From the NCBI RefSeq assembly GCF_002843315.1, contig NZ_MVDD01000002.1, forward strand, positions 434,001 through 498,000: DNA of 64,000 nucleotides, read 5' to 3'. Below, one piece after another: positions 21,079 through 61,537 of the stretch. Origin of the DNA: Labilibaculum filiforme. Lineage in GTDB: Bacteria > Bacteroidota > Bacteroidia > Bacteroidales > Marinifilaceae. The notes below the pieces were generated by a model that was not told the DNA's origin, did not search any database, and saw only the letters and a list, made by a program, of their open reading frames with translations. The position numbers were made by a program, and so were the translations under genes. Every line of letters starts with the position of its first letter. Position 1 is the stretch's first letter.

Positions 21079-21120
21079 AATTACCCGATCAAATTCGTTT
21101 GATTCGGGTAATTCTTTTTT
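21079..21120 (+). terminator. terminator after the FabH-like gene
   Basis: AATTACCCGA-TCAAA pairs with TTTGA-TTCGGGTAATT (one bulged base) around a TTCG tetraloop, then TTCTTTTTT. It ends a 3' region of about 180 bases (20901-21078) that shows no other gene. It may alternatively end a small unannotated RNA. Confidence 0.88.
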
Positions 21121-21220: not shown

Positions 21221-22585
21221 ATGGATTCACTATATACTTTCGCTATTCTTATTTGTTTAGCAGCAGCCATTTTGTTCTTTATTACTCTACTTTATACCAG
21301 CATCATTTTTTGGAAAGAGAAGGAAAAAAGAGCCACTTTTCGGGCGGTTACATTCCTGTTCGTACTACCTGTTCCTTATCTGCTTTCTTGGTATTATTCG
21401 TGGGAAATAGTTGCCTTACTTTTATCCATTGATCTTTTGCTTACCTTTCTTGTTTTTGCAATTCCATTCCCAAGGCCTAAAAATATTTGCGACGATTTTC
21501 CAGCATCTCAAATTGATGAACGAGATATCATGTTCGCGAGAAACGAGTTAAAAGTTGGTTCGAATCGATACGATGAGTATTATCAGAATAATCCTGACAA
21601 AGAGATTCTGGATAATAAGTTTAGAAAAGAACCCGGTTTACTAACTAAAAAGTCCGTTTTTTACAACCGAATGGCTTATGCCGCATCCAATGCCAGTTTT
21701 TTTGCTGTAGACCATTTTAAAACGGCTATCGATGGAGAGGTGAATCCTATTCAGGAAGCTATTTCGCAGGAAAAAATGATTGTATTCCTAAAATCCTGGA
21801 CCAAAAAATTAGGCGCTCTTCAGGTTGGCTTCACAAAATTATCCGATTACCATTACTACTCACATAAAGGCAGAGGTGATCAATATGGAGAGCAAATAAA
21901 AAATCATCATTCCTACGCAATTGCCTTTACGGTTGAAATGAATCAAGAAATGGTAGCCGCAGCACCAAAAGCCTCCATAGTTATGGAATCGGCACAACAA
22001 TATTTAGAGGCAGGGAGAATTGCGGTACAAATTGGTCAATTCCTTCGAAATTTGGGCTATTCGGCAAAAGCCCATATCGATGGAAATTACGAAGTAATTT
22101 GTCCTCTTGTTGCAAGAGATGCTGGTTTGGGAGAAATTGGCCGTATGGGCTTATTAATGACTCCAAAAGAAGGCCCTCGTGTTCGTTTAGGAGTAGTTAC
22201 CACCGATTTTGTACTGCCATCCAAGCAATGGAAAAAAAACAACAGTTTGCTCGATTTCTGTAATCGATGCAAGAAATGTGCAGCAGTTTGTCCGAGCAAA
22301 TCGATTTCTTTTGATCCACCCCACAGGATAGATGGAATAAAACGCTGGCAAATAAATTCCGAAAGTTGTTTTACCTATTGGAGCAAAGCAGGAACAGATT
22401 GTGGACGTTGCATGGCGAGTTGTCCTTATTCTCATCCAAATAATTTCTTACACAATTCTATTCGCTGGGGAATTCAACACTCTCCTTTATTCCGAAGAAT
22501 TGCCGTACCATTGGATGATTTCTTTTATGGCAGAAAACCTAAAGCAGCAAAAATGCCAAACTGGATTCCCAATGAGAAATTATAA
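21221..22585 (+). CDS. membrane-anchored reductive-dehalogenase-like corrinoid/Fe-S protein
   Basis: A 454-residue member of the RdhA/QueG superfamily of corrinoid-dependent reductases. Instead of the Tat signal of classical RdhA it has three predicted N-terminal membrane helices (~3-27, ~38-58, ~60-78). The catalytic part begins near residue ~90 (DERDIMFARNEL) and includes a corrinoid-site region with ARDAGLGEIGRMGLLMTP (~residues 300-320). Two 4Fe-4S motifs follow: C347-x2-C350-x2-C353-x3-C357-P, and C383 with C394-x2-C397-x3-C401-P, the pattern of bacterial ferredoxin-like RdhA. The ATG at 21221 is preferred to a TTG nine codons upstream. No RdhB-type anchor gene follows. TM-anchored RdhA-like proteins have been reported from Bacteroidota (memory); the electron acceptor is unknown. 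Confidence 0.8.
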   Translation: MDSLYTFAILICLAAAILFFITLLYTSIIFWKEKEKRATFRAVTFLFVLPVPYLLSWYYSWEIVALLLSIDLLLTFLVFAIPFPRPKNICDDFPASQIDERDIMFARNELKVGSNRYDEYYQNNPDKEILDNKFRKEPGLLTKKSVFYNRMAYAASNASFFAVDHFKTAIDGEVNPIQEAISQEKMIVFLKSWTKKLGALQVGFTKLSDYHYYSHKGRGDQYGEQIKNHHSYAIAFTVEMNQEMVAAAPKASIVMESAQQYLEAGRIAVQIGQFLRNLGYSAKAHIDGNYEVICPLVARDAGLGEIGRMGLLMTPKEGPRVRLGVVTTDFVLPSKQWKKNNSLLDFCNRCKKCAAVCPSKSISFDPPHRIDGIKRWQINSESCFTYWSKAGTDCGRCMASCPYSHPNNFLHNSIRWGIQHSPLFRRIAVPLDDFFYGRKPKAAKMPNWIPNEKL

Positions 22586-61047: not shown

Positions 61048-61053
61048 CTCTTG

Positions 61054-61128
61054 TCGGGGTGGCAGGATTCGAACCTGCGACCTCCTGCTCCCAAAGCAGG
61101 CGCGATAACCGGGCTACGCTACACCCCG
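61054..61128 (-). tRNA. tRNA-Pro (UGG), copy 3 of operon
   Basis: 75 bases folding to a cloverleaf: acceptor CGGGGTG / CACCCCG, anticodon loop TTTGGGA (anticodon TGG), T-arm GGTTCGAATCC, discriminator A. No encoded CCA. Sequence identical in structure to the two following copies. The + strand open frame that runs across it is spurious. Confidence 0.95.
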
Positions 61129-61186
61129 AAACTTGATTCCGGTATTCTATTGGATAAAAAGAAGCTTTTAACTCCTCAAAGTATTG

Positions 61187-61261
61187 TCGGGGTGGCAGGA
61201 TTCGAACCTGCGACCTCCTGCTCCCAAAGCAGGCGCGATAACCGGGCTACGCTACACCCCG
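61187..61261 (-). tRNA. tRNA-Pro (UGG), copy 2 of operon
   Basis: 75 bases, same sequence as the other two copies, anticodon TGG, no CCA. The 58-base and 68-base spacers on either side are similar to each other (both contain a run starting AAACTT and an ATTCCGGTA segment), pointing to tandem duplication of tRNA plus spacer. Confidence 0.95.
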
Positions 61262-61329
61262 AAACTTACATTCCGGTACTCTATTTAGATAAAAAAAGAG
61301 AAGTTTTTAAACTCCTCTAAAAATTTTCG

Positions 61330-61404
61330 TCGGGGTGGCAGGATTCGAACCTGCGACCTCCTGCTCCCAAAGCAGGCGCGATAACCGGGCTACGCTACAC
61401 CCCG
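61330..61404 (-). tRNA. tRNA-Pro (UGG), copy 1 of operon
   Basis: 75 bases, identical to copies 2 and 3, anticodon TGG, no CCA. It follows tRNA-Ser in the operon. Confidence 0.95.
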
Positions 61405-61443
61405 AAAATTTGTGGAGATAAAACTCCTTTTCAATCTAAACAA

Positions 61444-61537
<94 letters not shown>

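Follow-up and report, generated by a model that had tools for sequence, protein, structure and literature searches.

The locus and its genomic setting

A gene encoding a membrane-fused RdhA ('hybrid' or transmembrane reductive dehalogenase) of 454 aa is found at 21221..22585 (+) of the window, the whole stretch of 64,000 nucleotides of Labilibaculum filiforme DNA that was analysed. Its frame contains no inner stop codon on translation. An alternative TTG start lies 27 bases 5' of the annotated Met, and near relatives (L005-L010) share that Met. The 5' neighbour is an ACP-synthase-III-like gene that ends 320 bases before the fused gene, and the other neighbours are a convergent TPR protein gene and an rRNA methylase gene. 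An inverted repeat, ATTACCCGA...TCGGGTAAT, accompanied by a T run, was read by eye at 21080..21120 (+); the automatic terminator scan listed none at these positions. This hairpin is likely the terminator of the ACP-synthase-III-like gene, and the fused gene is therefore probably transcribed on its own as a monocistronic unit. Elsewhere in the window, three consecutive equal-scoring tRNA-Pro(tgg) genes adjoin a tRNA-Ser(gct) gene at 61053-61537 (-).

In agreement with the original prediction, the Tat motif RRx[FVIL] was not found in the first 60 residues, and no RdhB gene accompanies the fused gene among its neighbours. At the scale of the family, an RdhB HMM searched at E 0.01 against ORFs of 50-160 aa gave zero matches in 88 fused-gene loci, of which 4 are duplicates and several have short flanks. 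The same HMM recovered 11/11 RdhBs in Tat-RdhA loci, which are the very sequences from which it was built. The genome (5.2 Mb) also encodes two twin-Arg RdhAs (L155, L156) of different types, each with an RdhB gene and each with an FMN-binding/4Fe-4S (RdhC/NosR-like) membrane protein nearby, and their products are, from their sequences, candidate respiratory dehalogenases. The genome encodes its own QueG (L004) as well. An OsmC-domain protein was observed about 2 kb from one of the two Tat-RdhA/RdhB loci.

Relatives of the fused gene are dispersed across phyla. A genome scan confirmed 290 relatives, and the best 80 of these 290, most of them from MAGs, comprise 62 from Bacteroidota, 4 from Chloroflexota, 4 from Chlorobiota, 3 from Gemmatimonadota and 2 from Ignavibacteriota, with single members from Fidelibacterota, Latescibacterota, Spirochaetota and Calditrichota and one unassigned. 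The named near relatives of the query belong to Labilibaculum, Marinifilum and Ancylomarina. The gene is rare in even draws of genomes (4/395 of the class and 1/395 of the phylum, the query genome being counted) and is present in 16/56 Marinifilaceae genomes. A full-length Tat-RdhA profile match was obtained in 11/56 genomes of this family, every one of them within the 16 that carry the fused gene; ten encode type I, four type II and three both. The chance of this co-occurrence is 3e-8 on the assumption that genomes are independent, which they are not, and it may reflect shared ancestry.

Gene neighbourhoods were compared by clustering the neighbour genes of 81 loci, with inspection of the 30 most recurrent families and of 13 loci in detail. 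Neighbours were judged mostly by eye and three were checked with Pfam. Recurrent neighbours identified by Pfam include a TPR/SpoIIE regulator and a dimethylargininase-like protein, and those recognised by eye only include polysaccharide-type, nitrilase-like and AMP-ligase-like genes. No dehalogenation partner was recognised among these 30 families. The neighbourhood is conserved only among close kin, and deducing the substrate from gene context was rejected, as the recurrent neighbours are confined to small groups and form no consistent pathway.

Assignment to the reductive dehalogenase family

The NCBIfam reductive dehalogenase model TIGR02486 scores the query at 146.7 bits, below its cut-off of 160.35, and the QueG model TIGR00276 scores it at 32.7 bits against a cut-off of 200. 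Both models match 82/82 scanned fused members, the QueG model far more weakly (best E 6e-12, compared with 1.6e-53 for TIGR02486). Sequence matches to solved structures rank NpRdhA (3e-38) before SmPceA (6e-30), DhPceA (2e-26) and QueG (6e-5). In parallel, an AlphaFold2 model built from an 82-row alignment (pLDDT 95.2, pTM 0.91) was compared with the PDB by Foldseek, and the top 36 matches are all RdhAs. The first of them is 8q4h_A (7.2e-19), chain A of the menaquinol:organohalide oxidoreductase PceA2B2, by a small margin, with NpRdhA (1.7e-18) and SmPceA (1.9e-18) almost level, and the TM-score ranks NpRdhA (up to 0.62) nearer to the model than 8q4h (0.56). The best QueG match has an E of 4e-7.

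The same separation is seen in a tree of 61 catalytic cores, a set from which the sequences of PMC6797604 themselves are absent by accession. The membrane-fused proteins form one clade (29/61 rows, support 99/99) and QueG a separate one (10 rows, 100/100). The 17 rows of Tat-RdhAs, catabolic RdhAs and three others come together with weak support (84/79), and five more RdhA-like rows stand apart from the named clades. Long branches (L149, L160 and L157) leave the branching order among non-hybrid RdhAs unsure. On these sequence and model comparisons the query is an RdhA-family protein distinct from QueG. Neither of the two outcomes that would have refuted the original prediction was seen: the tree sets the query apart from QueG, and its fold agrees better with corrinoid RdhAs. 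It had first been described as 'RdhA/QueG-like': the RdhA half of this label stands, and the QueG half falls away except for one feature, Asp287. Moreover, the length of 454 aa leaves no room for a second corrinoid domain as in catabolic RdhA.

The query belongs to the published family of hybrid or transmembrane reductive dehalogenases, whose role in dehalogenation is putative. The accessible parts of PMC6797604 (Atashgahi 2019) describe 'hybrid putative RDases' from Bacteroidota, Deltaproteobacteria and candidate divisions, mostly with three N-terminal transmembrane helices (TMHs) and without Tat motif or rdhB, which bears out the original prediction's statement that such fused proteins had been reported from Bacteroidota. 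These proteins resemble the query in length, in the three helices, in an EXE motif placed after helix 1, in the lack of Tat and rdhB and in two Fe-S motifs C-terminal to the anchor. Table 1 of that paper, as far as it was available, contains several Marinifilaceae, including a 454-aa Labilibaculum filiforme protein that, to judge from its description, may be the query or close kin. Transmembrane RdhAs are also given as one of four RdhA subfamilies in the part of PMC10463259 consulted. The query is thus less new than the original prediction implied, as the family was described in 2019. Nothing was found to set it apart from the hybrids, and its kind is already known. The topology read from charges, the register of the helices and the Asp of the active site, all set out below, are features of the whole hybrid family that are added by the present comparison; the main text of PMC6797604, in its accessible portions and supplements aside, does not mention Asp, Asn, Tyr, quinol or the positive-inside rule. 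A literature search recognised no functional study of the fused RdhA family. In excerpts of PMC12090745, RDase genes without rdhB were transcribed in PCE cultures, and these passages are silent on whether the genes are fused. A Marinifilaceae bin in the excerpted part of PMC12908670 carries an RDase of the Tat type, as shown by its RdhB and its twin-Arg motif.

The cofactor-binding motifs are where they had been placed. Two 4Fe-4S motifs were found by sequence and alignment: the first, CxxCxxCxxxCP (C347, C350, C353, C357), at 22259..22291 (+) and the second (C383, C394, C397, C401) at 22367..22423 (+). Each of the eight Cys is invariant in 84/84 aligned family members, the query being one of the 84, which takes them beyond chance. 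The GLGEIGRMG motif of the corrinoid region (aa 302-310, 22124..22150, +) is nearly invariant across the family. In addition, the alignment revealed a family-specific linker motif, IDERD (aa 98-102, 21512..21526, +), in which D99, E100 and R101 are invariant in the 82-row alignment.

A proposed composite active site

Three residues of the active site, Tyr261, Asp287 and Arg322, are each invariant in 84/84 members. Tyr261 (22001..22003, +) aligns with SmPceA Tyr246 and NpRdhA Tyr426, the proposed proton donor. Arg322 (22184..22186, +) aligns with SmPceA Arg305 and NpRdhA Lys488 and is found in 29/29 hybrids, and Arg is likewise found in 11/11 Tat-RdhAs. Trp387 is the same residue in 7/11 Tat-RdhAs and in both PceA structures. 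Asp287 lies in the AHIDGNY motif (aa 284-290, 22070..22090, +). HMMER aligns it with SmPceA Asn272 and with an NpRdhA Asn, and hhalign aligns it with the Asp of the QueG AFVD motif. According to the sections of PMC4646009 that were available, SmPceA Asn272 matches Asp-130 of QueG, for which a role as proton donor has been proposed; Tyr246 has a counterpart in QueG, and Arg305 has none there.

When the position of Asp287 is counted without gaps from a conserved Gly, Asp is found in 0/19 non-hybrid RdhAs and Asn in 10/19, namely 6/6 type-I Tat-RdhAs, 2/2 PceA chains and 2/3 others. The remaining residues are Thr (4) or Ile (1) in type-II Tat-RdhAs, Ala (2) or Val (1) in catabolic RdhAs and one Leu, so that Asn at that count is missing from 5/11 Tat-RdhAs. 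The type-II Tat-RdhAs of Marinifilaceae read GGDT, with an Asp one place before the Asp287 position. MAFFT and hhalign differ in where they place a two-residue gap of this loop, and the equivalence with Asn272 is based on the HMMER alignment to SmPceA, on the ungapped Gly count and on the match of Asn272 to QueG Asp-130 published in PMC4646009, as far as that source was seen. AHID was present in one of the two scan patterns by which members were collected; Asp at 287 is equally present in L005-L008, L010-L012 and L136-L138, which were collected independently of any pattern. The invariance of Tyr261, Arg322 and Asp287 together with the equivalence to the QueG Asp points to a composite site, in which the fused family would join the Tyr-Arg pair of RdhA with a QueG-type Asp.

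The known enzymes differ from the query in distinct ways. Respiratory RdhAs of the PceA type have Tat and RdhB, which the query lacks while scoring below the TIGR02486 cut-off, and the query keeps their Tyr and Arg and not their Asn272. Catabolic RdhAs (NpRdhA 4ras, BhbA type) share the corrinoid and Fe-S domains, the Tyr and a probable cytoplasmic site; unlike them, the query has no duplicated or reductase domain, has Arg322 instead of Lys and possesses a transmembrane anchor. QueG shares the class III corrinoid, two 4Fe-4S clusters, the position of the catalytic Asp and, in the part of PMC4646009 consulted, a Tyr equivalent, but it stands in a separate clade and offers no counterpart of Arg322.

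The same scaffold could act on a substrate other than an organohalide and catalyse reductive C-O or epoxide cleavage, with Asp287 protonating an oxygen leaving group as in QueG. The invariance of this Asp at the position of the QueG Asp and of PceA Asn272, its absence from the 19 non-hybrid RdhAs and the lack of dehalogenase-related families among the recurrent neighbours (judged mostly by eye) all speak for this chemistry. Nevertheless, Arg322 is kept in all hybrids as in all 11 Tat-RdhAs and has no equivalent in QueG in the excerpts of PMC4646009, Trp387 is shared with the PceA structures and most Tat-RdhAs, the fused gene co-occurs with Tat-RdhA in Marinifilaceae, and Asp287 could merely sit near the Tyr as Asn272 does; a shift of substrate class is accordingly rather unlikely. 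From its sequence the fused enzyme is probably a dehalogenase, with a possible widening of its substrate range through Asp287.

The membrane anchor, the putative quinone pocket and the probable direction of the active site

The three N-terminal membrane helices of the original prediction were recovered as hydrophobic segments that are helical in the AlphaFold2 model (residues 2-32, 36-58 and 62-79, the second broken at 49). Helix 1 (aa 2-32, 21224..21316, +; hydrophobicity, profile comparison and model) aligns with RdhB helix 2. It is followed by an ExExRA motif (aa 33-38, 21317..21334, +; E33, E35) in a K/R-rich loop on the catalytic side, which corresponds to the 'EXE' loop of RdhB; E33 is conserved in 82/84 and E35 in 77/84 members, two rows being gapped. 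The start of helix 2 (aa 36-58, 21326..21394, +; profile comparison and model) aligns with that of RdhB helix 3, and helix 3 (aa 62-79, 21404..21457, +; same evidence) lies beyond the RdhB profile alignment and returns the chain to the catalytic side. By hhalign, the hybrid segment from TM1 through EXE to the start of TM2 aligns with the RdhB segment from TMH2 through EXE to the start of TMH3 (probability 94.6%, E 7e-8, 41 columns), the E-value referring to the one profile comparison from which the register is taken. The TM-ExExxA-TM pattern of the RdhB anchor is thus present as a domain in the fused protein, which confirms the anticipated N-terminal anchor and makes it RdhB-like.

In RdhBs the motif reads ExEPxA in 8/11 and ExVPRA in 3/11 and is positioned after the second of three helices, as also described for PceB in the available part of PMC10624902, whereas in fused proteins it follows helix 1. 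In the alignment the short PceB of Sulfurospirillum (74 aa) has no helix 1, so that RdhB helix 1 seems dispensable. The RdhB C-terminus lies opposite its catalytic partner, and a fusion ahead of RdhA would need an extra crossing, which helix 3 would provide.

In the PceA2B2 complex, the quinone is located between two C-terminal helices of PceA and TMH2 and TMH3 of PceB (PMC10624902, seen in part). The fused protein has both sides: the two anchor helices matching PceB TMH2/TMH3 and, in the stretch H405-Y436 (22433..22528, +; alignment and model, and PMC10624902 as above), two C-terminal helices, 409-420 and 422-436, that correspond to helices 17-18 of PceA on the catalytic-chain side of the pocket. 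H411 and R415 align with HDVAR in DhPceA; judged by spacing, this stretch is H495...R499 among the pocket residues named in the accessible text of PMC10624902. H411 and Y436 are found in 29/29 hybrids, 11/11 Tat-RdhAs and 0/3 catabolic RdhAs; the H411 column also holds His in 9/10 QueG rows, inside a gapped stretch. His405 replaces DhPceA K489, which is Lys in 11/11 Tat-RdhAs. R415, conserved in 84/84 members in one alignment and 27/29 in another, was dropped as a pocket marker, being matched in 1/11 Tat-RdhAs and Lys in 2/29 hybrids, as was D432, which catabolic RdhAs also carry. The menaquinone pocket of PceA thus appears partly kept in the fused protein, and the genome encodes MenD and CbiH, both above family cut-offs.

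Electrons could also come from ferredoxin or another cytoplasmic donor, with the helices just holding a cytoplasm-facing RdhA near lipophilic substrates. No linked donor gene is seen in the window, a reductase domain is fused to some catabolic RdhAs (PMC10463259, in part), and a gene for an Fe-S/CCG-domain protein lies 77 bases 5' of the fused RdhA in one locus (L105 3825-5888, by Pfam), while L116 and L124 have related genes at distances of up to 4 kb. This protein was dropped as a donor because three loci are too rare. The RdhB-like character of the anchor, the retention of EXE Glu residues and the conserved pocket His and Tyr argue against a soluble donor, which we consider quite unlikely. 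Menaquinol-dependent reduction by a self-anchored enzyme is preferred.

The direction of the anchor was examined through its charges. K+R are in excess on the catalytic side in 82/82 scored fused members, the EXE loop averaging 3.1 and the segment after TM3 averaging 2.7, compared with 0.24 before TM1 and 0.48 in the TM2-TM3 loop. In RdhBs the pattern is reversed in 11/11, with 0-2 K+R on the EXE side, N-terminus included, and 7-8 on the opposite one, the rules for cutting segments being slightly different between the two groups. Combined with the positive-inside rule, this pattern, a charge statistic over 82 members that are related and not independent, indicates that the anchor is probably turned over relative to RdhB and the active site probably cytoplasmic, as had been anticipated. 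Export of corrinoid and Fe-S proteins normally proceeds in the folded state, via Tat, and a cytoplasmic site agrees with the absent Tat motif. Conversely, the catalytic domain would be exoplasmic, as in classical RdhA, according to many TMHMM calls in Table 1 of PMC6797604, that for Labilibaculum filiforme included, although the results for hybrids in the part of the source seen are mixed, with cytoplasmic and exoplasmic C-termini. With the charges against it in every scored member and no Tat motif for a folded cofactor protein, this orientation is very improbable. A non-catalytic ferredoxin-type membrane protein is scarcely credible, since, even though the Pfam models above cut-off on the query are generic 4Fe-4S only and PF13486 (Dehalogenase) stays below (17.6 vs 24.3 bits), the active-site Tyr and Arg are invariant, the GLGEIGRMG region is nearly so and the fold match spans 360-400 RdhA columns.

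Taken with the model, these comparisons somewhat favour a self-anchored, menaquinol-dependent, cytoplasm-facing corrinoid reductase of the reductive dehalogenase family. As in PceA2B2, menaquinol would bind where TM1/TM2 face the two C-terminal helices, and electrons would travel through the distal and then the proximal cluster to reach cob(I)alamin. Reduction of the substrate would take place in the cytoplasm, the proton being handled by Tyr261, Arg322 and Asp287; this substrate would most likely be a lipophilic organohalide that has found its way into the cell. Quinol oxidation and substrate reduction would both occur on the inner side, so that the enzyme itself would be electroneutral; it would act as a sink for electrons or in detoxification, and only steps upstream of it would conserve energy. 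The inward orientation would make Tat export and a separate RdhB no longer needed. PceA2B2 (8q4h; PMC10624902, in part) shares the fold, the Fe-S chain, the Tyr-Arg pair, the EXE loop and the pocket His/Asp/Tyr; compared with it, the query is a single chain with a probably inverted anchor, without RdhB helix 1 and with an extra helix 3, has Asp287 for Asn and His405 for Lys, and lacks Tat. A bolder proposal, that the flipped RdhB-type anchor fused to RdhA and the change of Asn to a QueG-type Asp have produced an inside-out menaquinol oxidoreductase that also cleaves non-halide groups (C-O, epoxides), is doubtful. If true, such a composite Tyr-Arg-Asp enzyme would be a widespread cytoplasmic quinol-driven link between dehalogenases and epoxyqueuosine reductases.

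The available portion of PMC6797604 raises the questions whether hybrids act as dehalogenases, what they would do if cytoplasmic and, if exoplasmic, by which route they could be exported. Definite predictions on these points now follow from the charge pattern, the register of the helices and the partial quinone pocket, and Asp287 would serve as a one-residue discriminator between dehalogenase-like and QueG-like chemistry. The presence of the fused gene in cultured marine Marinifilaceae (Marinifilum, Ancylomarina) makes tests feasible, and the subject would bear on the marine halogen cycle.

Within the genus, the intact fused gene is found in 3/9 genomes. In five others (L045-L049) the upstream gene is kept and is followed by the rRNA methylase without an rdhA-like gene, and G005, a 63% complete genome, retains only a C-terminal remnant at the same site (L013/L050). 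Recurrent loss of the fused gene in the genus is therefore likely.

Other RdhA-like proteins were encountered outside the hybrid clade. G019, a Marinifilaceae genome without the hybrid gene, encodes L014 and L149 (418 and 324 aa), both devoid of Tat motif and anchor; in the tree L014 falls with catabolic RdhAs, yet it is too short for the duplicated domain. Finally, other Bacteroidia have a small group of RdhA-like open frames, L140-L143, each 317-373 codons long, that stand apart from QueG and from RdhA in the tree, on a long branch.
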